This document shows, in pieces, positions 1,189 to 41,234 of a stretch of 41,234 nucleotides of DNA (positions within the stretch are counted from its first letter, which is position 1; each line of letters begins with the position of its first letter). This stretch comes from a virus: the IMG/VR virus record IMGVR_UViG_3300019776_000373, positions 1-41,234 of that record; one strand, given 5' to 3'. Both the position numbers and the translations under genes were made by a program. The notes beneath the pieces are model-generated. The model saw only the letters and a list, made by a program, of their open reading frames with translations. It ran no database searches and was not told the DNA's origin.

Positions 1189-1565
1189 GCTGGTGTGTCC
1201 TCTGTTTCCGCGTGCCATGCCTCGATGAACGAAAGCAGTTCACGGCACTCGGATTGCGTCAGGTCTGATGTGTGGCGGAAAACAACGTCCACGCCGGCGC
1301 CGTCAAGCGCCGGCAAGACCTCGATTCGCTGCCCAGTTGCGCGGCCCCATGCGGCTGTTAGCAGGCGCTTCCAGACCTCGGGGCGGTGCTTGCTGCCGGC
1401 GTGCTCGCGGGTCTTGGCAATCTCGCCAATCATTGCGTGCAGTGCTGCATTGATGCCGTTGTCACGCTTCGGTTCTTCGACCTTGACGACATAGCCGGCC
1501 GGCGCCTCAGCCACAGCGGCGACAGCGCGGCGGCGGGCTAGATCGTGGGCAAGAATGAATTTCAA
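1185..1565 (-). CDS. ninB: NinB-like recombination protein (Orf family)
   Basis: A 126-residue protein matching the NinB/Orf family, which in lambda assists RecF-pathway-like recombination and binds single-stranded DNA. Visible features are the N-terminal KFILAHD strand, the basic helix with HAMIGEIAK, EVWKRLLTAAWGRA, and the LDGAGVDVVFRHTSDL block near the C terminus. The start is set at TTG 1565, which overlaps the ParB-like stop (TTGA) and has GAGG seven bases upstream; an upstream in-frame TTG at 1580 is less likely. It travels with RecT and the ParB-like gene. Confidence 0.88.
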   Translation of the reverse strand: MKFILAHDLARRRAVAAVAEAPAGYVVKVEEPKRDNGINAALHAMIGEIAKTREHAGSKHRPEVWKRLLTAAWGRATGQRIEVLPALDGAGVDVVFRHTSDLTQSECRELLSFIEAWHAETEDTPA

Positions 1566-2206
1566 GTTGCAACCTCGCAAAACAAGGCATCAAGTGCGGC
1601 GGTTTTTTCTTCCCGCGTCTTGCTGCTTCTGATGATGGCATTGACCTTGTTGGTCATTTTGTTGACTGCCACCTTCATGATGATTTCGGGCAGGTTGTAC
1701 TTGGCATCGATGGCCAGCACCGATTTGCACAGCCCGAGCGAGTTCATACCCAAGCCGTTCTTGATTAGGGTGTCTACGCCATAGGTGCCGACAAGCCCAA
1801 CAAGCTCTTGGTACTGCTCACGGTATGGGGATGGCACCTTGCGACCGCCTCGGGCAATCTCAAGCCACCCACGACTGCGCATTGGCTCTGGCGTTTCATT
1901 GATGGCGTTGAACAGGTCGTCACGCGGAACGTCTGAGACGATGCATTCGATGTGCGTGTGACCAAGAATCCGGCAAGCCATCAGGCGGCGGTTCCCATCT
2001 GCCAATTCGCGGTCATCCGTGATGAGGATCGGATAGGCAAGCCCATATTGCTCAATCGTCTTGACAAGCTGCGATAGCTTCTTGCCCTCCGCCGTTCGCT
2101 TTGCCGGGTTGTACGGTGTCGGTTTGATGGTGTGGATTGGCACGCGCAAAATCTTTCGCTCACTGACTTCGGAGTCAAAAACCACGCGGTCTAGAACTTT
2201 GGTCAC
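1562..2206 (-). CDS. ParB/Srx-fold N-terminal domain protein
   Basis: A 214-residue protein starting at GTG 2206, overlapping the upstream stop as GTGA and preceded by AAGGAAG. Residues about 20-92 form a ParB-like N-terminal domain, with VPIHTIKPTPYNP, a YGLAYPILI strand and the ADGNRRLMACRILG motif (GNRR at 71-74) that in ParB proteins binds CTP or DNA. There is no clear ParB helix-turn-helix; the C-terminal half is helical and unrecognised. No ParA partner is seen, so a role in recombination, modification or regulation is more likely than partition. It is translationally coupled to ninB. Confidence 0.82.
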   Translation of the reverse strand: MTKVLDRVVFDSEVSERKILRVPIHTIKPTPYNPAKRTAEGKKLSQLVKTIEQYGLAYPILITDDRELADGNRRLMACRILGHTHIECIVSDVPRDDLFNAINETPEPMRSRGWLEIARGGRKVPSPYREQYQELVGLVGTYGVDTLIKNGLGMNSLGLCKSVLAIDAKYNLPEIIMKVAVNKMTNKVNAIIRSSKTREEKTAALDALFCEVAT

Positions 2207-32848: not shown

Positions 32849-33905
32849 AAACTACTTGCAGAGCCTGCTCCCAGAGGTTCGCCCGACCCCACGAAACAAG
32901 CTGATGGGCCTGTTGGCCGATGCCCTGACGGCGGCAAACGACTACGCCAACAAGCCCGACAAGACAATGCCGGGCGGCCTGCTCAACCCGCCGCTTGCTG
33001 CGATGTCGGGGCTGCTCAGTCTTGGCAGTCTTGCCACCACTGCCGACCGCATGAGCTACGGCGAGAAGCTGACGAACGCCGGCAAAGCAAACGTGCCATT
33101 GCTCAAGCCAGAGACGGCCGACGCGCTGATGATGGCTCCGATAAGCCCGCGCAATGCGTTGGCTGCGGTCAGCATGGGCGCCGGGGCGGTTGACGGCGGT
33201 ATGCTTAAGAGCATGATGCTTTATCACGGGTCAAATTTTCGTAAGCCGCTCGGGGAAATAGTCCAGGGCGGCGGTAATTTCGGCGGGCTATTCGCCTCCA
33301 CCCAGCGCCAAGCCGCAGGGTCGCACGGCGATTTTCTATACCGAATGACAGTGCCCGACGAAAAGGTTCTGCATCACGGCGCGGACACGGGGGACGCTGC
33401 GCTTTCGGTGGCCAGAAGGAGCCTTGGCAACCATCTTGGGGATGATGATCTGCGCATCGTTGCAAGTCTTATCGAGGACGACAAGGCGGCCCCGTGGCAA
33501 ATACCCGACAGACTCATCGGCACGCTTGCATCTAAGTTGCCCGACCAGTCTGGGGTGGTCGCCGGTGACGCTTCGTGGTATTTGCAGCGGCTTCGCGGCG
33601 AGATGGCCAGAGAGCTTGGTTTTGATGCTGTCGCCATGAGCGACGAATTTGGCACAAGCTATCTTGTGAACAAGGCAAAGCCGCGCCCGTACAACCAAAA
33701 TTCCAAAGACCTGGCGCGCGGGACATGGCAACAAAACATTCCGCAGCCGCCGACACAATGGCAGCCAGAGGCAAAAATACCTGGATCAATGACGATGGAT
33801 CAATGGCGGGCCATGCCCGAGGCCGACAAAGCAAGAAGCGCAGCACTTGTCAGCGGGGCGCTCGGCCGGCGCGATCTTAGCGAGCTTGCGCGATATGGGC
33901 GCTAG
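32841..33905 (+). CDS. ADP-ribosyltransferase-like late protein (ART-PolyVal type)
   Basis: A 354-residue protein starting at ATG 32841 with GAGG six bases upstream. The N-terminal about 120 residues (PTPRNKLMGLLADALTAAND, later ATTADRMSYGEKL) form a region often found in phage late effector proteins. From residue 127, LYHGS (H at 129), GGLFAS (148-153), LGFDAVAMSDEFGTSYLV with Glu 269 fit the ART-PolyVal fold, where His and Glu bind NAD. It may be packaged and injected to modify host proteins. The catalytic role is inferred. Confidence 0.6.
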   Translation: MAENYLQSLLPEVRPTPRNKLMGLLADALTAANDYANKPDKTMPGGLLNPPLAAMSGLLSLGSLATTADRMSYGEKLTNAGKANVPLLKPETADALMMAPISPRNALAAVSMGAGAVDGGMLKSMMLYHGSNFRKPLGEIVQGGGNFGGLFASTQRQAAGSHGDFLYRMTVPDEKVLHHGADTGDAALSVARRSLGNHLGDDDLRIVASLIEDDKAAPWQIPDRLIGTLASKLPDQSGVVAGDASWYLQRLRGEMARELGFDAVAMSDEFGTSYLVNKAKPRPYNQNSKDLARGTWQQNIPQPPTQWQPEAKIPGSMTMDQWRAMPEADKARSAALVSGALGRRDLSELARYGR

Positions 33906-33923
33906 CCGGGGGTAAGCGGAAAA

Positions 33924-34229
33924 ATGATCCGCTGGTCAAACTGCCTGATCGAAGCGCGCCTAGAGTACTGGCGCCGCGTCCGCGCCTGGCGCAAGAATCC
34001 GTCGCTGCCAATGCCGTACTACATCAAGCGCCCGAGCTACGCTAGCCCGTGGATTTCGCATCGGCTTGTGGGCCGGTTCGACGGCAGGATTGAGGCGATC
34101 CGGCCTAGCAGCTTTCAGCCTGAAGCGCCGAAGCCTCGGTTGCGCTGGTGGCAACTGCCGATTGCCTTCCTGTTCCGGGGGCGCTGGGTCAGTGGGGACA
34201 CGCGGCCGGGGGAACTGGGGGAACGCTAG
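33924..34229 (+). CDS. Small basic late protein
   Basis: A 101-residue basic, aromatic-rich protein (EARLEYWRRVRAWRKNPSLP, later RWWQLPIAFLFRGRWVSGD). The ribosome site is modest. It is the last rightward gene; its TAG overlaps the TAG of the convergent leftward gene. Function unknown. A short hydrophobic stretch is too weak to call a membrane helix. Confidence 0.6.
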   Translation: MIRWSNCLIEARLEYWRRVRAWRKNPSLPMPYYIKRPSYASPWISHRLVGRFDGRIEAIRPSSFQPEAPKPRLRWWQLPIAFLFRGRWVSGDTRPGELGER

Positions 34230-34492
34230 GGCAGGGCGCGGATAGCGGCGGCAACCGATTGGCCCATCCCGCTCCTTCCGCGCGTCAGGAAGTCGGCCGC
34301 AGCCTTCGCGCATCGCTCCCGCTCATCCGCCCGCACAAGCTCGGAGAATCGGGATAAAAACTCGGTTTCGTCTGGTGAGTCGCCGTCAATGCAGTACGGC
34401 ATACAAATCTCAACGCCGTTACCGTAGTGGTTTTCAACGTCATATCCAGCCTCACGCGCCCACCGCTCTAACTGCTCTTGGGTCGTGGTCAT
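34226..34492 (-). CDS. Small early-type protein
   Basis: An 88-residue protein, last of a leftward operon of six. It has MTTTQEQLERWAREAGYDVE at the start and FSELVRADERERCAKAAADF near the end, a pattern (…R.DERE.CA.) frequent in small uncharacterised phage proteins. ATGA coupling links it to its upstream neighbour. Function unknown. Confidence 0.75.
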   Translation of the reverse strand: MTTTQEQLERWAREAGYDVENHYGNGVEICMPYCIDGDSPDETEFLSRFSELVRADERERCAKAAADFLTRGRSGMGQSVAAAIRALP

Positions 34493-34785
34493 GCCTCCAC
34501 CTCGGCGCCGAACTTCGCCTCAGCCGCCGACAGCACAGCCGTAACGATGCACTCGGCCATGAGCATGCTGATCTGCGCGCTGCCGGCCATCGACTCCATG
34601 ACCTCCTCAGCCGTTGGCCTGACGCCGGTCAACACGATCCGGCGCGCTGGGTAGCGTTGGAAGCTGGCTGACCACTGCCGGCCGGGCTTGATGCCCGTCA
34701 GGTACAGATCGCTGCGGCTCACCACGGTGCCGGCGCCAGGGTTGAATGGCTCGGTATAGACGTAGCTTGCGAAATTTGCGGTCAT
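34489..34785 (-). CDS. Hypothetical protein
   Basis: A 98-residue protein starting at ATG 34785 with AAGGA five bases upstream; the frame extends further upstream but without a ribosome site. The N-terminal half is strand-rich, including YVYTEPFNPGAGTVVSRSDL, and the second half helical. No family is recognised. It belongs to the second leftward operon. Confidence 0.7.
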   Translation of the reverse strand: MTANFASYVYTEPFNPGAGTVVSRSDLYLTGIKPGRQWSASFQRYPARRIVLTGVRPTAEEVMESMAGSAQISMLMAECIVTAVLSAAEAKFGAEVEA

Positions 34786-34786
34786 A

Positions 34787-34984
34787 TCAATCCTTCGCGC
34801 TGGTTGTGCGCATGTGTGCCGCCTTCGCCACCCTAGCCCGCCTACGCGCGATCTTCGCGGCGGCTTCCTTGACCTCGGCGTGCTGCTCGGGGGGGGCGTA
34901 GATGCCGCGCACCTCGGTCCTGCCGGCATCTAGGTGGCGGGCGCGTTCGGCGGCTTTGCGCTGGGCGGGGGTTTTGGCGGTCAT
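34787..34984 (-). CDS. Small basic helical protein
   Basis: A 65-residue, strongly basic, helical protein (KTPAQRKAAERARHLDAGRT, later KEAAAKIARRRARVAKA). ATGA coupling links it to its upstream gene. The AQRKAAERAR opening is shared by many small phage proteins thought to bind nucleic acid. Function unknown. Confidence 0.72.
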   Translation of the reverse strand: MTAKTPAQRKAAERARHLDAGRTEVRGIYAPPEQHAEVKEAAAKIARRRARVAKAAHMRTTSAKD

Positions 34985-35208
34985 TCAGCCATCCGAGATT
35001 GCCTTGCCCGGGCGTCGTCCAACAGCCGGGAGGCTTTCTCTAGCAATTCCATTGCCTCCCGCAATGCCGGGTTGTTGGCAACGGCCCTGTTTCTTGCTCG
35101 GCTGCCAATGACAAGCGTGTGCACATCGTCGTTGTTGCGGCTCCACGCGATATGCGCGGCGTTGTGGGCGGCCATTGTGGCGCCCGCTGCAATCTCAATT
35201 TCGTTCAT
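34981..35208 (-). CDS. Hypothetical helical protein
   Basis: A 75-residue protein starting at ATG 35208 and coupled on both sides. It ends in a charged helix (REAMELLEKASRLLDDARAR). The N terminus is Ala/His/Asn-rich. No family recognised. Confidence 0.7.
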   Translation of the reverse strand: MNEIEIAAGATMAAHNAAHIAWSRNNDDVHTLVIGSRARNRAVANNPALREAMELLEKASRLLDDARARQSRMAE

Positions 35209-35552
35209 GGCTTACCTTGTGTGCTTGCGCAGGCAATGGCAAGCCGGTCGATGGCTTCATTGCATCGCTTGACGGCCCGTCCGATGTGCGCATCTTTTCC
35301 TTCGGCAGAACGCATTACTTCGTTGCGCATTTCCAGACAGGCCAACTTTGCCGCATTGCAAAGGCTGGTGATTTCTGCGCCGATCCAGTGTTGAGGATGC
35401 ATGTCTTCGGCCGGCGTTGCCGCAATGGCCGACAAAGCAAAGGCGCGCATTTGTTCGGCCGTGTAGTGGTCTATTTGCCTTCCGTATTGCCACATTGTGC
35501 GGTCCGGGTGCGGCAGCGCAGGAAGCGCGCTGCTGTTTGCTGGTGCGCTCAC
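35205..35552 (-). CDS. Hypothetical protein of the second leftward operon
   Basis: A 115-residue protein. GTG 35552 begins two bases after the stop of the upstream gene, so coupling is likely; an internal ATG is an alternative. It has a helical C-terminal half with two Cys (SLCNAAKLACLEMRNEVMRS) and a conserved-looking HWIGAEITSL. Function unknown. Confidence 0.65.
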   Translation of the reverse strand: MSAPANSSALPALPHPDRTMWQYGRQIDHYTAEQMRAFALSAIAATPAEDMHPQHWIGAEITSLCNAAKLACLEMRNEVMRSAEGKDAHIGRAVKRCNEAIDRLAIACASTQGKP

Positions 35553-35553
35553 G

Positions 35554-35703
35554 TTACAGCACCACGGTGCAGACGATTTCCACATCGTCGCCGTAGATGG
35601 CGCGAATGTCGGCGTGAGCGGCTTCAATGTCGCAGGCAACCGTCTGCAAGAACGTCAGACCGTTGCCGTTGTTGATGCTGATTTCGTAGGTCGCGTATGC
35701 CAT
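35554..35703 (-). CDS. 49-residue protein, first gene of the second leftward operon
   Basis: ATG 35703 lies about 26 bases after the predicted transcription start, downstream of the shared 18-nt leader element. The product (MAYATYEISINNGNGLTFLQ, then ACDIEAAHADIRAIYGDD) looks like a small ferredoxin-like alpha/beta fold. No catalytic motif is visible. Confidence 0.7.
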   Translation of the reverse strand: MAYATYEISINNGNGLTFLQTVACDIEAAHADIRAIYGDDVEIVCTVVL

Positions 35704-35712
35704 TTGCTTGCC

Positions 35713-35730
35713 CCGGTTGCTGTGTTGATG
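35713..35730 (-). promoter_or_regulatory. 18-nt leader element, copy 2
   Basis: Identical to 4656-4673 and in the same place relative to its promoter, starting at about +1 and ending ten bases before the first start codon. The flanking bases differ, so the element itself appears conserved. Confidence 0.7.
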
Positions 35731-35735
35731 CCTCA

Positions 35736-35764
35736 ATCATAGTTCACCGTGACACGTCACGCAA
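35736..35764 (-). promoter_or_regulatory. Promoter of the second leftward operon with palindromic operator
   Basis: On the minus strand, -35 TTGCGT (35764-35759) and -10 TATGAT (35741-35736) have 17-base spacing. The spacer holds a perfect palindrome CGTGAC-AC-GTCACG (35748-35761), which overlaps the -35 box. This palindrome is unrelated to the repressor operators, so another regulator (phage or host) may act here. Confidence 0.75.
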
Positions 35765-35826
35765 GCCCCGCAAGCAACTATTTTTCCGTCTAACGCACTC
35801 CGCCCAAGCCCGGCAAGATCAGCCCG

Positions 35827-35877
35827 AAAAGCGCCGACGCGGTTAGAGCGTTTCGGCCCTAAGTGCGTGTCGGCGCT
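35827..35877 (-). terminator. Hairpin terminator beyond attP, end of the leftward early operon
   Basis: On the minus strand, AGCGCCGAC (35877-35869) pairs with GTCGGCGCT (35838-35830) over 9 bp, with a 30-base loop, and is followed by TTT. Its place past the attP core means that integration separates it from the integrase operon, as with lambda sib. Confidence 0.6.
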
Positions 35878-35892
35878 GGTTTGCGGTTCAGG

Positions 35893-35937
35893 TTTGGGAC
35901 CAGAGGGTCGAAGGTTCGAATCCTTTCACCCCGACCA
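35893..35937 (+). other. attP core: 3' part of tRNA-Pro (TGG)
   Basis: These bases carry the anticodon loop TTTGGGA, the T arm with GGTTCGAATCC, the acceptor 3' strand CACCCCG, discriminator A and CCA. The 5' half of a tRNA is absent and the anticodon 5' stem strand is mismatched, so it is not a functional gene. Such a fragment restores the host tRNA upon integration. The integrase gene lies about 530 bases away. Confidence 0.88.
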
Positions 35938-35947
35938 CTTTTTACCC

Positions 35948-36006
35948 ATGAAGCGGCGATAGTGACCGCTTCATAGGTGGTGACAGCGGTTAGACGAGTG
36001 TCTAAC
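35948..36006. other. Inverted repeats between attP core and integrase operon end
   Basis: A 9-bp perfect inverted repeat (ATGAAGCGG 35948-35956 / CCGCTTCAT 35966-35974) is followed by a 7-bp one (GTTAGAC 35989-35995 / GTCTAAC 36000-36006). The motif (T)CTAACG or its complement also occurs on the other side of the core (about 35791 and 35839). These are candidate integrase arm or excisionase sites. No gene lies in 35704-36010. Confidence 0.5.
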
Positions 36007-36010
36007 GCGA

Positions 36011-36412
36011 TCAGGCGGCCAGCTTGCTGCGCAACTCGTAGCCCATGAGCGGCCACACCTTATTGACGGCGTTCGCACGGGCGATCTTGCGGCCCACGTT
36101 GGCGTCGAAGTTCTCGGGGCTGGCGCAGGCCGACTCGCCGGTGACGGTGAATCCGTTGCGCAGCACCAGCACACAGAAGGTCAGCAGCGAAAGAGGGTTG
36201 CGCATACCAGGCCGCGAGAAGTGCCCGCGCTCGGGCGTGGTGCCGTCGTCTTCGACAGCGGCCGAGCGCCCTTGCTCGGCAGTGAAATACACCTCGCCGA
36301 TGATGTTCTGGTCGATGTCGGCCGGCGTGACGCGCGGTGCAGTCAGGCCCTTGCGGATGATTTCTTGCTCGATGCTCGCGTCATCGACGCGGGGAGATTC
36401 AATGCGTTCCAT
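36011..36412 (-). CDS. Phage gp49/gp66 family protein
   Basis: A 133-residue protein starting at ATG 36412 with AAGGA nine bases upstream. It matches the N4 gp49/Sf6 gene 66 family: ADIDQNIIGEVYFTAEQG, PLSLLTFCVLVLRNGFTVTG, ESACASPENFDANVGRKIAR, and the ending VWPLMGYELRSKLA. The family is common in phages and has no agreed function. It is the last gene of the leftward early operon, between integrase and attP. Confidence 0.88.
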   Translation of the reverse strand: MERIESPRVDDASIEQEIIRKGLTAPRVTPADIDQNIIGEVYFTAEQGRSAAVEDDGTTPERGHFSRPGMRNPLSLLTFCVLVLRNGFTVTGESACASPENFDANVGRKIARANAVNKVWPLMGYELRSKLAA

Positions 36413-36434
36413 GTGTAAAGGGTCCTTGTCAGTT

Positions 36435-36458
36435 GCCGGGCAGGATCGGGCGCCCGGC
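36435..36458. other. Intercistronic hairpin between integrase and gp49-family gene
   Basis: GCCGGGC (36435-36441) and GCCCGGC (36452-36458) form a 7-bp stem with a 10-base loop. There is no T-run. It may mark an mRNA processing point. Confidence 0.4.
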
Positions 36459-36467
36459 TGGCCCGTG

Positions 36468-37496
36468 TTACTTCGTCGCGCCAGTCTTCCGCGCAGTCTT
36501 GTGCCGTATGTAGTCCATCGTTTGCCCCTCGGTCGAGTGCGCCCCCTTGGCATTCGCGGCCGCCCGGCCCTGTGTCGCGTCGGTGTCCGTCAGGGCCTTG
36601 GCGCGTAGGTCGTTGAAGGTCGGCCCCTTGACGCCCGACCGCTTAACCGCGCGCTTCCACGCTGTCTGAGCCCCGCTGTAGGTGTACGGCTGACCGTCCT
36701 GCGTGGTGATGACCTTCCGCGTGAACGCCACGCGCTCAATCTTCAGCGCCCGCAGCCTGGCGACCACATCGCGCAGCTTCGGCGACCACCCGACGATGAT
36801 CCGCGCGCCTGTGCTGCCGCTGGTCTTGCTGGGCTTGAACGCGATGCCGTCATCCGTGATCTGTGACCACTCCATCGCCAAAAGATCGCCGATGCGCTGG
36901 CCGGTCAGGTACGCCATGTCGATCAGCGCGCACAGCATCAGCCCCGACCGCGTGCGCTTGCCGTCATCGCCGTAGATGCCGCCGATCTTGATCCGCCGCA
37001 GCTCGCTGTCGGTGATGTAGCGATCCCTCGGCGGGGTCTTCATCGTGCGCAGGGCCGAGACTGGATTGCTCCCGGGCTCCCTAAATCCGCGCTCGATGGC
37101 ATACCGCATCAGCTCGCCGATCTGCGCTCTGACCATGTTGTGCGTCTTCGGCTTCGATTGCAGCAGCCGCAGCAGGTCTGCAACGTCTGGCGGGCGCACA
37201 TCGGGCGGCGCGAATTGCGCGAAGGTCTGCGCGATCAAGGCGTTGTAGTGCTTGTCCATGACGCGCGTCTTCGGCGCGTGCCGTGGCATTACGTCGCGCT
37301 CCCAATCGGAGACAAGCGACGGCATCAGGTAAGCCCGCGCTCCTTCCTCGTTCAAGTCGGCCAGTGCGCGCAAGAACGCCGGCATGCCATCCGACACTTT
37401 CGTGAGCGGCACCCAGCGGCGGCGCTTGCCTTCCGCGATGACGCGGTAGTAGCGGCCGTTTTTTACCTGCGTGCCGGTTACGGGGCCTTTTGTCAT
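36468..37496 (-). CDS. int: Tyrosine recombinase integrase
   Basis: A 342-residue protein starting at ATG 37496 with AGGGG upstream. An N-terminal arm-binding region and core-binding domain (about residues 55-150) precede the catalytic domain. This has Arg201 in the TGQRIGDLL box, Arg298 in FNDLRAKALTD, His320 in GAHSTEG and the nucleophile Tyr329. The usual first His of the HxxR box is Asn295. It integrates the phage at tRNA-Pro. Its place far down the repressor-controlled operon resembles lambda int. Confidence 0.93.
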   Translation of the reverse strand: MTKGPVTGTQVKNGRYYRVIAEGKRRRWVPLTKVSDGMPAFLRALADLNEEGARAYLMPSLVSDWERDVMPRHAPKTRVMDKHYNALIAQTFAQFAPPDVRPPDVADLLRLLQSKPKTHNMVRAQIGELMRYAIERGFREPGSNPVSALRTMKTPPRDRYITDSELRRIKIGGIYGDDGKRTRSGLMLCALIDMAYLTGQRIGDLLAMEWSQITDDGIAFKPSKTSGSTGARIIVGWSPKLRDVVARLRALKIERVAFTRKVITTQDGQPYTYSGAQTAWKRAVKRSGVKGPTFNDLRAKALTDTDATQGRAAANAKGAHSTEGQTMDYIRHKTARKTGATK

Positions 37497-37529
37497 GCTT
37501 GTCCCCTGTGCGCCAGTTGCATTTGCGGG

Positions 37530-38051
37530 TTAGAAGTTCCCGAAATCAGCGTATGGGCCTTCGTCCTTGGTCTGATGCGTCGGCTTGCGATTAAGCGCCC
37601 ATGACCACACGGCACCTCCGGCCACTTTTGACGCAAACTGAAGAAGCACGATGTGCGGCATCAGCGCGCCGAAAGCCAGCGTCGGGAAGATCAGCGAGTC
37701 AACCGCAGCGCCGGCCATGTTCGACCCATTGGCACGAAACATCCATGACCCGCGCAACCGGGCAAAGGCCGCCCAGTCCACGAGCGCGGCGGCACTGAAG
37801 GCGATGGCGCTGGCTACTGCGATCATTCCGGCCGTAGGGTTCAGAGCGTAGGTGAGCACGCCAGTGCAGGCGATCAGCGAGCCCATCTGCCAGGCGCGCA
37901 GCCGGACGTGAAGCCAGTCACGTAGCGCCAAATCCAAGCCGATTAGCACGAATGCATTAATGGGCGTGACCGCAGGACCCCATATGGCAACGGAAAGATT
38001 TGCCAGCGTCATCGCGGCGGCATAGATCAGAATGGCAATTGTCAGGGTCAC
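37530..38051 (-). CDS. yhhQ: YhhQ/VUT-family 7-deazaguanine precursor transporter
   Basis: A 173-residue inner-membrane protein with about five to six hydrophobic segments. It matches the YhhQ (VUT) family: early membrane helices, GLDLALRDWLH, and the family signature SNMAGAAVDSLIFPTLAFG near residues 108-126. YhhQ imports the queuosine precursors preQ0/preQ1. GTG 38051 overlaps the stop of the transglycosylase-like gene (GTGA), so the two are made together. It probably raises the cell's pool of 7-deazaguanine base for that enzyme. Confidence 0.82.
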   Translation of the reverse strand: MTLTIAILIYAAAMTLANLSVAIWGPAVTPINAFVLIGLDLALRDWLHVRLRAWQMGSLIACTGVLTYALNPTAGMIAVASAIAFSAAALVDWAAFARLRGSWMFRANGSNMAGAAVDSLIFPTLAFGALMPHIVLLQFASKVAGGAVWSWALNRKPTHQTKDEGPYADFGNF

Positions 38052-38797
38052 AGTAGGCTTCCTTGGTCTTCGGGTTGGTACTCGGGAACGTTGAATCCCC
38101 AGCGTGCAGGCGCGTTGTGCGCCTCAATGCGGCTGCGCATCACGGCTGCGCGCATGTCTTTGTTGGGCGGCATGTAGTTGCCGCGCCATGTCTGGTCTAT
38201 GCCGATGTTCCTGCCAATGTTGGTGCTGTCGGCACTGGCAAACGGGAGTCGTGTGAAAACCTCAGGGTTCAGCATGCGCAAGCCGTGCAGCTTCACCAGT
38301 GGTTGGCCTTCGTCGTTGCACACCACGCGCATCGCGCGGGAAATCTGGCCCCACCATGCGGCTGTGCCAATCGTCGCGAACTCGCCAGAGCTGCCAGTGC
38401 ACACGCGGGGCCATGCCGCAGCCAGTCGCTCAAGCCGGCTCAGGCTCTCGTGCATATGCCACACCGGGGCGCCAAACCAGCGCGGCAGCGGCCACTCTGC
38501 AAGCAGTGCGTCGTTTGCGGCCTCGTTGCCGTCGATCACATCAGGAACAACAGCGAAGTCGCAGGCTGGGACCAACTTGCAGGCTGCGGCCCATTCGTAG
38601 TAGCCGCGCCAGTTCTGCACCGGCTCGCCCTTCTTCCAGGCACTAAAGGCGCCGTTGTCAACCGCAAAGCTCTGGCACACCTCAACGGCTACACACAACT
38701 GGTCGGCATGCGCGTGGCTCACAAAAGCGTGCCCAGCCTCAACCGCTTTGTTCGCGGCAGTCGCTGGCGTAATAGGAAGTCCGTGGTAATGGATCAA
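38048..38797 (-). CDS. dpdA: DpdA-like DNA 7-deazaguanine transglycosylase (TGT fold)
   Basis: A 249-residue protein of the tRNA-guanine transglycosylase superfamily. Ordered motifs match TGT: DNGAF (47-51, like DSGGF), the base-binding Asp in VVPDVIDG (86), the KLHGLRM strand (169-175, like LAVGG), and SADSTNIGRNIG with the candidate nucleophile Asp190 before a GRN triad. The C-terminal zinc Cys cluster of tRNA enzymes is absent, as in phage DpdA proteins that exchange guanine for 7-deazaguanine in DNA. The start is TTG 38797; no better start exists upstream. No preQ0 biosynthesis genes are present. Confidence 0.78.
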   Translation of the reverse strand: MIHYHGLPITPATAANKAVEAGHAFVSHAHADQLCVAVEVCQSFAVDNGAFSAWKKGEPVQNWRGYYEWAAACKLVPACDFAVVPDVIDGNEAANDALLAEWPLPRWFGAPVWHMHESLSRLERLAAAWPRVCTGSSGEFATIGTAAWWGQISRAMRVVCNDEGQPLVKLHGLRMLNPEVFTRLPFASADSTNIGRNIGIDQTWRGNYMPPNKDMRAAVMRSRIEAHNAPARWGFNVPEYQPEDQGSLL

Positions 38798-38813
38798 GGT
38801 TATATCTCGCTTG

Positions 38814-39044
38814 TTACGCTGCGCGAAGCAACGCCCGAGGCGGCGTAATCACCGGCCTCTTGCGCTCCACATCCCCACCCCTGCACACGGCTTCGTAGTG
38901 CGCTCGCTCAAGCACAAGCCTTCCGCCTGCGTTGATGTGTGCGCGCCAGAAGCCGCGTTGCCGCAGCACTTCAAGTTGCGCAGCGGTTCGGCGGCGGCCG
39001 GTCAGCGCCTGCAACTCGTCGGGGGTCAGGATCAGGTCAGGCAT
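38814..39044 (-). CDS. DUF4224 protein
   Basis: A 76-residue protein whose LILTPDELQALTGRRRTAAQ followed by LEVLRQRGFWRAHI is the DUF4224 signature, a short helical DNA-binding-like domain often found near phage integrases. ATG 39044 has GGGAG six bases upstream; GTG 39065, with AGGAAG upstream, is an alternative. It may act as an excisionase-type or regulatory protein, which is not established. Confidence 0.82.
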   Translation of the reverse strand: MPDLILTPDELQALTGRRRTAAQLEVLRQRGFWRAHINAGGRLVLERAHYEAVCRGGDVERKRPVITPPRALLRAA

Positions 39045-39210
39045 TGCCGGCTCCCGCTTGCGCACGAATCTTCCTCGTTATCTCCCGGACCGCCCACCAA
39101 GTGCGTCGAGTCCGCCTATCCCAATACGGCTTTGGCCTGACGCTCATAGCGCGATCCCAAGAGATTGAGAACTGACACCGAAAAGCTGTCCGGTTGATCT
39201 CGCGCACCAT
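39037..39210 (-). CDS. Small basic protein
   Basis: A 57-residue Arg- and Trp-rich protein starting at ATG 39210 and ending eight bases inside the DUF4224 gene, so coupled translation is likely. The core (PKPYWDRRTRRTWWAVREIT) is basic and aromatic. The ribosome site is weak and an internal ATG at 39147 is an alternative start. Confidence 0.52.
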   Translation of the reverse strand: MVREINRTAFRCQFSISWDRAMSVRPKPYWDRRTRRTWWAVREITRKIRAQAGAGNA

Positions 39211-39217
39211 CGGTGAC

Positions 39218-39436
39218 TTAGCTCGCGGCATCTTTCGGCTCCTTCATCTGGCCTTCCTTGAGCATGGCGTCGGCGAATTCGTAGCAGAACGCGGCGGCCT
39301 CGGAGAAGGTGCGCGCCCGGCTGTCCAAGATCATGGCCTGCATCGCCTTTGCCGCGAAGTAGTCGCGCAAGGTCATGCCGAATGAAGACACTCGCACAGG
39401 CCCCGGAAACGCCGGACCGCCGTCTCGCTCGCTCAT
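39218..39436 (-). CDS. Conserved small phage protein
   Basis: A 72-residue protein starting at ATG 39436, overlapping the upstream stop (ATGA). It has DGGPAFPGPVR and GMTLRDYFAAKAMQAMI, a pattern frequent in small uncharacterised phage and prophage proteins, and a helical C terminus. No function is known. Confidence 0.8.
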   Translation of the reverse strand: MSERDGGPAFPGPVRVSSFGMTLRDYFAAKAMQAMILDSRARTFSEAAAFCYEFADAMLKEGQMKEPKDAAS

Positions 39437-39822
39437 CGCGTTGCCTCCTGTGCGCCAGCAGTGCCGACGATTGCGGATTGCAGCGCGCTGCGGGCCTCGT
39501 TCTCGTGGCGTTGGCATTCGGCCGTGTAGCTCTTGCTGGTGCCGTACAGGCTCTCGGCATAGGCGGTAGCGGCGGCTCGGGCGTACTTGTCGGCCGACTC
39601 CATCAGTGCGCTTATCTGCGCATCCGTCAGCCCATCGCGCGGCGGCTGCTGGCGGTTCGCGGCAAGGGTCGCTTCCGCCCGCTGGATCAGCTCGGCCAGC
39701 ATCCGCATCCCATCAACGCACTCGCGCAGCGTTTCGCGCCTCACTGGATTGCTGTCCTTTTCCATTTCAGCCATCACCTCCCAGGTGCCGGCCAGTTCTT
39801 CAAGCAGTGGTGCTGTTTTCAT
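39433..39822 (-). CDS. Helical early protein
   Basis: A 129-residue protein. ATG 39822 was chosen because GAGG stands six bases upstream; the ATG at 39828 touches that element. It is helical throughout, with a conserved-looking RRETLRECVDGMRMLAELIQ and a C-terminal helix rich in Ala and Tyr. No family is recognised. Confidence 0.75.
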   Translation of the reverse strand: MKTAPLLEELAGTWEVMAEMEKDSNPVRRETLRECVDGMRMLAELIQRAEATLAANRQQPPRDGLTDAQISALMESADKYARAAATAYAESLYGTSKSYTAECQRHENEARSALQSAIVGTAGAQEATR

Positions 39823-39831
39823 GGTCATCCT

Positions 39832-40224
39832 CTATGGCCTCACGCGGTACAGGTACAGCGGCGGGTCGCCCTCGAAGGTCAGGGCGCCACAGTCAAGCAG
39901 TTCCGCGACGTTCGCATCCAGTTCTTCGGCGTGTTCGGCACTCATGTGCTCGCCATCGGCCAGCCAGAACATCGCAACCGCAACGGCGGCGCGCACTTCC
40001 GACTCGTCAGCGCACCACGTCAGATGCGCCCGCTTGTCGTCGTCCATTGCGATGAACAAGAACGGCGCCACTGCCTGCGCTGGCACCGGCTGCTGTGCTT
40101 GCGCAGCCTGGGCGGCGAGTGCGCGCAGGAGTTCGGCGGCTGCACGCTCCACAAGCGGCTCGTGGTGGTCAACCTCAAGAAGCGCGGCCAGGCGCTGCGC
40201 CTCGGAAATCTGCTGTGGGTTCAT
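39832..40224 (-). CDS. Small early protein with QPVPAQAVAP segment
   Basis: A 130-residue protein, ATGA-coupled to its upstream neighbour. Residues 40-55 carry the QQPVPAQAVAP sequence found in two other genes of the operon. The C-terminal half (DESEVRAAVAVAMFWLADGE ... LLDCGALTFEGDPPLYLY) is a mixed alpha/beta domain. Function unknown. Confidence 0.75.
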   Translation of the reverse strand: MNPQQISEAQRLAALLEVDHHEPLVERAAAELLRALAAQAAQAQQPVPAQAVAPFLFIAMDDDKRAHLTWCADESEVRAAVAVAMFWLADGEHMSAEHAEELDANVAELLDCGALTFEGDPPLYLYRVRP

Positions 40225-40466
40225 TTGGGCTCCTGTGCGGTGGTGGGGCGCTCATGGCTGAACGGCGTGAACTCCCAAGCGCCCATGCCTTCAGCATCGG
40301 CACTGTGCATTGCGTGGCACTCCTGGTGCATCTTCACGGTGCCAACGTTGCCATCGTCATAGCAGCGCCAGCGCATGTACTGCTCGCCTTGGTTGACTGG
40401 TTCGCCGCAGCTCATGCAGGTGTGCCCCTTGCGCGCCGTAAGCGTCTCGGGGTCTGTGCAGTGCAT
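40221..40466 (-). CDS. Small zinc-binding-type protein
   Basis: An 81-residue protein. HTCMSCGEPVNQGEQYMRWR, then a Cys, and HQECHAMH supply four or five Cys and two or three His in the pattern of a small zinc domain (GATA/LIM-like spacing), common in phage early proteins. It starts at ATG 40466 with GGAGG about eight bases upstream. The role is probably protein or nucleic acid binding. Confidence 0.75.
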   Translation of the reverse strand: MHCTDPETLTARKGHTCMSCGEPVNQGEQYMRWRCYDDGNVGTVKMHQECHAMHSADAEGMGAWEFTPFSHERPTTAQEPK

Positions 40467-40469
40467 CCC

Positions 40470-40799
40470 TCACCCCTCCCCGGTGGTAGGCGCCGGCAGG
40501 ATGCGCGGCATCACGCTGATGTCGATCCAGCGCGGGTCGCCGAATCCCTTGAACAACAGCGCCCAGCACTTGCGGCCGTGCGGCTTGTTGCTCGGCGAGC
40601 CATGTTGCACCTTTGTCCCGGTCTGCTCGGCCATCATGTTGATGACCGGATCAGGCGGGGCGGTCGTATCTGCCCACGGGACTAGCACCACATCGAGGTC
40701 ACGGGTAAAACTGCCGTGCAGACATGCGGCATAGCCGTAGCTCCAGGCCAGGCACCGGATGATGCTGTAGGCGCGGGCGTAGTCGGGGTCGTAGATCAC
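40470..40799 (-). CDS. Nucleotidyltransferase-fold protein, candidate
   Basis: A 109-residue protein starting at GTG 40799 (GTGA overlap). HGSFTRDLDVVLVPW (about 28-42) matches the GS...DxD motif of the minimal nucleotidyltransferase fold, and RWIDISVMP near residue 92 could give the third acidic residue. Such folds transfer NMP to proteins, RNA or drugs (MNT/MntA group). The sequence is short and no HEPN partner is nearby, so activity is uncertain. Confidence 0.55.
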   Translation of the reverse strand: MIYDPDYARAYSIIRCLAWSYGYAACLHGSFTRDLDVVLVPWADTTAPPDPVINMMAEQTGTKVQHGSPSNKPHGRKCWALLFKGFGDPRWIDISVMPRILPAPTTGEG

Positions 40800-41234
40800 G
40801 CGTGCTGCTCCTTGTCGGTGGTCGGCGCTGCCGGGGCGGCGGCGGCGATAGCTGCCTTCAGGCGCCCAAGCAGCTTCCTGTCGGGGCTACCAAATTCGAT
40901 CCCGGCCCGGTAGTCATCAATCGATGCGGCGGCGTCTTGCAATAGCTCCTTCGGCACCAGCACCCACCCATCTGGCGCCACTGCCTGCGCCGGAACCGGC
41001 TGCGCGGCAGGGGACACGCTGTCGCCATCGTAGAGAGGCAAGAAGGTGGCGCGCTCCAGAGCGGGCCTTCCGGCCGCTCGCTTAATCGAGCCCGCATCGC
41101 TGGCCTGCGGCGTCTCGTCTCGCTCAGGCTGCGCCATCGCGGCATCTGCGGCTGCGATGGCTGCGCGCAGATCAGAAATCGCGCGGTCGCATTCGAGCAG
41201 CAGGAATGTCGGGGTGTTCTCGCCTCCGCGCTTG
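40796..41234 (-). CDS. Small early protein, C-terminal part of the gene crossing the cut
   Basis: This is the downstream part of the gene that begins at base 185. Bases 41136-41234 repeat 1-99, so the true path is 185->1 then 41135->40796. An internal ATG at 41137 is not the start: the frame is open through the join to MSAELIRSKS. The C-terminal part has AQPVPAQAVAPDGWVLVPKE followed by a helical tail ending TTDKEQHA. Function unknown. Confidence 0.85.
   Translation of the reverse strand, partial: KRGGENTPTFLLLECDRAISDLRAAIAAADAAMAQPERDETPQASDAGSIKRAAGRPALERATFLPLYDGDSVSPAAQPVPAQAVAPDGWVLVPKELLQDAAASIDDYRAGIEFGSPDRKLLGRLKAAIAAAAPAAPTTDKEQHA
40813..40842. repeat. 30-bp direct repeat (second copy at 211-240)
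   Basis: Bases 40813-40842 equal bases 211-240. They encode the shared PAAPTTD segment near the C termini of two neighbouring leftward genes. Related shorter matches lie at 431-468, 40066-40080 and 40976-41013. Confidence 0.85.
41136..41234. repeat. Terminal direct repeat, right copy (circular overlap)
   Basis: This is an exact repeat of bases 1-99. Removing one copy joins the reading frame of the leftward gene perfectly. Confidence 0.93.

Follow-up and report, generated by a model that had tools for sequence, protein, structure and literature searches.

DpdA-only phages and phage-encoded preQ0 transporters have both been described already. Hutinet et al. (2019) listed 76 DpdA-only phages, whose modification status was hard to predict, noted YhhQ genes in some phages, uncorrelated with group, and left open both the DNA modification of the DpdA-only phages and the source of their precursor (PMC6884629). 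The DpdA-only phages assayed have given traces or nothing. Salmonella phage 7-11 has 50 dADG per 1e6 nucleotides (0.02%) (PMC6884629) and Pantoea phage MED16 has 354 dADG per 1e6 nucleotides (0.13%); MED16 DNA is cut by EcoRI, BamHI, HaeIII and other enzymes, most of the G-containing sites tested being unprotected (PMC8306585). The DpdA of phage 9g has demonstrated activity on DNA and failed to restore queuosine to a tgt mutant, and a histidine at position 196 separates DpdA from DpdA2, in which it is missing (PMC6884629). In phage EC151 and the Seuratvirus clusters, dpdA occurs with a predicted preQ0 transporter and a complete folE-queD-queC-queE set (PMC8310023). Here, we describe a locus that also combines a phage dpdA with a predicted precursor transporter, but in which the transporter is the sole supply gene. 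In the literature available to us, we found no study of this enzyme-Vut pair, and no modification assay of a short-DpdA phage that bears a Vut or a QueD-like gene.

The locus lies in a virus record of 41,234 bases, the whole of which is hereafter called the window, and we consider it fairly probable that it is a mobile two-gene DNA-modification cassette, composed of a short DpdA and a coupled importer of 7-deazaguanine precursors. The order on the minus strand is excisionase, 249-residue ORF, 173-residue ORF and integrase. The excisionase-like gene (38814..39065; DUF4224, phrog_1266 excisionase) is separated by a 16-base gap from the enzyme gene (38048..38797), and the alignment of homologues from the first residue onwards speaks for the TTG start of the latter. 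The stop of the enzyme gene and the GTG start of the membrane protein gene (37530..38051) share the four bases GTGA (38048..38051), which suggests translational coupling, and a tyrosine integrase gene (36468..37496; Phage_integrase, E = 2.3e-10; phrog_1) is directly downstream, also on the minus strand. An earlier reading of the DNA, made from the sequence only, had placed the two genes and their overlap at these positions and on this strand, and re-reading the sequence confirmed this. Judging from gene order and strand only, the pair may be co-transcribed with the integrase. The window also contains terminase, portal, major head and DNA-ejection genes; integrase, excisionase, portal and DNA-ejection genes together make a temperate podovirus, as had been proposed, a fair description. 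A gene for a ParB-like protein is also found in the window (1562-2206, minus strand). The sequence-only reading was equally right that biosynthesis genes are absent: QueC, QueD (PTPS), radical-SAM (queE) and FolE have zero matches within the record, which is possibly a fragment. Rfam models found neither a preQ riboswitch nor any other RNA in the window, and neither the enzyme nor the transporter matched a defence model of PADLOC-DB.

The 249-residue protein is almost certainly a homologue of DpdA, as judged from family and profile searches, in agreement with the identity first suggested for it. The PHROG search assigned it to phrog_887 (E = 4.6e-68), which also takes the DpdA proteins of phage 9g (E = 2e-98) and of Salmonella phage 7-11 (7e-74), and hhalign aligned its family to 9g DpdA with a probability of 94 and E = 9.1e-8. 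There was no Pfam or NCBIfam match, and the Pfam TGT model (PF01702) was absent at E up to 1; in control searches this model missed 9g DpdA itself and matched E. coli Tgt at 2.8e-168. An hhalign comparison with the single sequence of E. coli Tgt gave no match, which we read as lack of power plus distance. The CxCxxC zinc motif, whose absence had been noticed earlier, is indeed missing in the window enzyme and in 9g DpdA, while it is present at 302 in E. coli Tgt (CDCYTC). Identity as a tRNA TGT was rejected on the missing zinc cluster and the unmatched TGT model.

The series of TGT motifs read from the sequence holds in part. In a 40-row alignment of relatives, Asp47 (DNGAF), Asp86, His171 and Asp190 are invariant, and three of them are conserved in 9g DpdA as well: Asp47 aligns with DSGAF, His171 with 9g His196 (KVHGFGI) and Asp190 with the Asp of CDSS. 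By prediction, Asp190 is the nucleophile, Asp47 the second acid and His171 the DpdA-type histidine; we infer that the published "histidine at position 196", which distinguishes DpdA from DpdA2, is 9g His196. However, Asp86, although invariant in the short family, is Ser in 9g DpdA, a point against our preferred explanation, and because of this substitution the base-binding role assigned to Asp86 is only putative. The AlphaFold2 model of the enzyme is a beta/alpha barrel (pLDDT 84.2, pTM 0.83). Foldseek matched the model to predicted viral structures, including phage models named queuine tRNA-ribosyltransferase, with E to 4e-8. In the PDB, the fold search returned generic TIM barrels, the best being tryptophan synthase alpha (E = 5.9e-3), with no TGT in the best 50 of the fold and profile searches; since the matches are generic, this result supports a barrel and not TGT specifically. 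Sequence and profile searches of the PDB gave no match. The structure and profile check proposed earlier thus bore out the barrel and the relationship to 9g DpdA, but the PDB comparison did not single out TGT.

Compared with known DpdA proteins, the window enzyme shares with 9g DpdA the PHROG, the pair of catalytic Asp residues, the His171/His196 position and the missing zinc cluster. In contrast, 9g DpdA is 317 residues long and 17% identical, has no aligned equivalent of Asp86, and has the full preQ0/G+ pathway alongside. Phages 7-11 and MED16 are closer. Both encode a short enzyme of the phrog_887 type whose catalytic residues are those of the window enzyme, and both lack biosynthesis genes; the sequence identity to the window enzyme is 33% for 7-11 DpdA (gp032, alignment row L118) and 37% for MED16. 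Unlike the window, however, both are missing from the results of the Vut search, and they combine the lack of a supply gene with trace dADG.

The 173-residue partner matched Pfam Vut_1 (E = 2.4e-11, 44.7 bits against a curated cut-off of 27.2) and also phrog_4899. Its AlphaFold2 model has six helices (pLDDT 90.5). Together with the GTGA overlap, these results uphold the earlier description of the enzyme gene as coupled to a YhhQ-type transporter gene. E. coli YhhQ, which transports preQ0, belongs to Vut_1 as well but has 221 residues compared with 173 here. NCBIfam matches to YhhQ (TIGR00697; queuosine precursor transporter) were below the cut-offs, at 24.4 bits versus 50.95 and 20 versus 252. 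Furthermore, the partner gave only a weak and partial alignment with E. coli YhhQ (hhalign probability 32%, E = 4.8e-4), which counts against the cassette explanation, and the PDB fold search with the transporter model found nothing significant, the best non-significant matches being ECF S-components. The substrate is not readable from a Vut_1 sequence; the partner is most naturally read as a precursor importer, and we regard it as very probable that it transports a 7-deazaguanine precursor.

The sequence-only reading held that, for want of a pathway, the phage would have to import or scavenge its precursor. This was not borne out on the host side: prophage relatives occur in 24 bacterial genomes, chiefly of Burkholderiales and Pseudomonas, and a strong QueC was found in 21 of these genomes and a TGT match in 23. 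With QueC in 21 of 24 genomes, preQ0 is probably made by the host already, and import would raise flux instead of making up for a total lack. In three of the host genomes, a QueC copy adjoins a weak TGT-like frame of 435-468 residues (G069 C24:473050-479173, G047 C23:514698-517530 and G051 C5:611200-613836), and in G069 a Vut_1 gene is also found at this cluster; these are possibly bacterial dpd-like or other deazaguanine clusters.

The arrangement had been thought to look unusual, but it is widespread. A scan found at least 596 relatives of the enzyme in viral contigs, and 104 phage records have one, including BTP1, SPN3UB and SfI, some of them annotated as queuine tRNA-ribosyltransferase. 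When 117 loci were compared, with the window left out, 44 had a Vut gene adjoining the enzyme gene and 17 a QueD-like (PTPS) gene, example QueD-like proteins being confirmed by Pfam; the two were never found together beside the enzyme (0 of 117). Roughly half of the loci are without either supply gene, which weighs against the explanation that we prefer. The transporter gene is mostly downstream; Pectobacterium phage PEAT2, the relatives of PEAT2 and an actinobacterial MAG have it upstream; the QueD-like gene is upstream or downstream, depending on the locus. The same adjacent pair occurs in isolated phages, namely Acinetobacter phage AB3P2, PEAT2 and Escherichia phages LHE71 and Opt-719, the last three with the transporter first, and its genes are mostly annotated as hypothetical in these phages. 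No QueC match was found in 46 related virus records, so there is no hidden QueC in them. QueD-like genes adjoin the enzyme gene at L015, L021-L032, L041, L046, L089 and L109, and most of these QueD-like proteins are without the Cys-containing loop (DYPQIHGHSY or SSRRIHGHTY), while the one at L101 has HKCRNMHGHTF. The loop Cys has a role in ordinary CPH4 synthases, and the Cys-less proteins may be something other than ordinary CPH4 synthases.

The association of the two genes is not random. This Vut is present in 21 of 50,697 phage records and the enzyme is adjacent in 14 of the 21, a count that includes three near-copies of Opt-719 not opened individually; over the 50,697 records, Fisher's test of adjacency gives p of about 1e-33, with relatedness ignored. 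The remaining 7 records are mEp021-like and have no enzyme nearby (for mEp021 itself the whole record was checked), which counts against our explanation. In the mEp021 type (L125:3929-5196), as seen in the record of mEp021 itself, the Vut gene and a gene for a DNA cytosine methyltransferase overlap, and this record lacks a DpdA; the arrangement suggests a different use of the transporter. On the tree built from 80 enzymes, at least 15 changes of the Vut label are needed, at least 8 of them forced by strong branches, and 6 changes of the QueD label, at least 4 of them forced; the changes may include losses, and several branches are unsure.

The pair also moves between phages as a unit. When the DNA of window 33001-41234 (8.2 kb) was compared with all loci, 113 of 113 matches were inside 37590-38812. 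Loci L008, L010 and L011 have both genes in common with the window at 84-85% and nothing beside them, the nearest pair spanning about 1.2 kb, and L013 has the enzyme alone in common with the window DNA. The DNA likeness is confined to the cassette, so the two genes are passed on together among phages that are otherwise unlike each other.

Under the cassette explanation, the compact TGT-type barrel enzyme would exchange guanine in DNA for a 7-deazaguanine base (preQ0 or one of its derivatives) by way of a covalent Asp190 intermediate. The YhhQ-type protein would import preQ0 or preQ1 and lift the supply above the level made by the host; in relatives, an extra biosynthetic step, QueD-like, would replace import on top of the preQ0 of the host. 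We think it likely that DNA is the target of the enzyme. The view that the modification protects phage DNA from restriction, also part of the sequence-only reading, found no support in the trace dADG of 7-11 and MED16 and in the cutting of MED16 DNA, and substantial protection by the cassette seems to us possible but doubtful.

An alternative that we judge unlikely is that the short DpdA modifies rare or specific DNA sites, for marking or regulation instead of bulk protection, and that the importer sustains a low rate. The trace dADG and scant protection in 7-11 and MED16 would fit, as would the position of the enzyme gene close to genes for recombination, excision and integration in temperate phages and the lack of a hypermodification pathway in the window. 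However, because both assayed phages lack a supply gene, the traces could be due to precursor shortage or be spontaneous side products, and the repeated acquisition of supply genes suggests that flux matters. To our knowledge, a site-specific marking role is not known for 7-deazaguanines.

It is quite improbable that RNA is the target, for instance tRNA on which the enzyme, as a transglycosylase, would adjust the queuosine of the host in infection. Automatic annotation as queuine tRNA-ribosyltransferase points this way, and imported preQ0 or preQ1 feeds tRNA queuosine too, but the zinc cluster is missing, neither the Pfam TGT model nor E. coli Tgt is matched, the homologous 9g DpdA left queuosine unrestored in the tgt mutant (PMC6884629), and nearly all of the related host genomes have a TGT already. 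Slightly less probable still is an action on deazaguanine-tagged protein, or a diversion of free deazaguanine, that counters 7-deazapurine-dependent defences such as type IV CBASS. Cap10 of this system is reported to be a TGT-family protein that binds a deazaguanylated protein, an indication that the TGT fold can turn to protein partners (PMC11996544), and the compact size and family-specific Asp86 set the window enzyme apart from 9g DpdA; on the other hand, both catalytic Asp residues and the DpdA histidine are all kept, PADLOC gave no defence-model match, and an importer would feed such a defence and not starve it. Least probable of all is that the genes are neighbours by chance, which the 14-of-21 adjacency and the DNA sharing confined to the cassette led us to reject, or that the Vut protein carries an unrelated substrate, as the breadth of Vut_1, the half of the loci without Vut and the mEp021-type phages might suggest, since both gene orders occur, otherwise dissimilar contigs have the cassette in common as a unit and the alternative partner is QueD of the preQ0 pathway.

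With DNA modification by the two-gene cassette as our preferred explanation, the repeated pairing of a short DpdA with one of two supply genes offers a direct test of precursor limitation: if supply limits, relatives with a supply gene should be more modified than those without. Whether DpdA-only phages are precursor-limited thereby becomes a simple comparison, and a likely function is given to hundreds of genes annotated as hypothetical or as queuine tRNA-ribosyltransferase in common temperate phages. A more general idea, which we rate as rather unlikely, is that temperate phages trade a minimal cassette of a short DpdA and one exchangeable supply gene, a transporter or a QueD-like gene and never both, which would either raise flux to substantial modification or serve site-specific DNA marking at excision, integration or lysogeny.

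One viral contig has two tandem enzyme-plus-transporter pairs (L043:2547-5521). In an Acidovorax delafieldii prophage (L092:5983-6747), the enzyme frame is split by a stop, and the gene looks inactivated. At L112:4938-5912, the gene directly upstream of the enzyme gene, here that of a divergent relative, encodes a PAPS-reductase domain.
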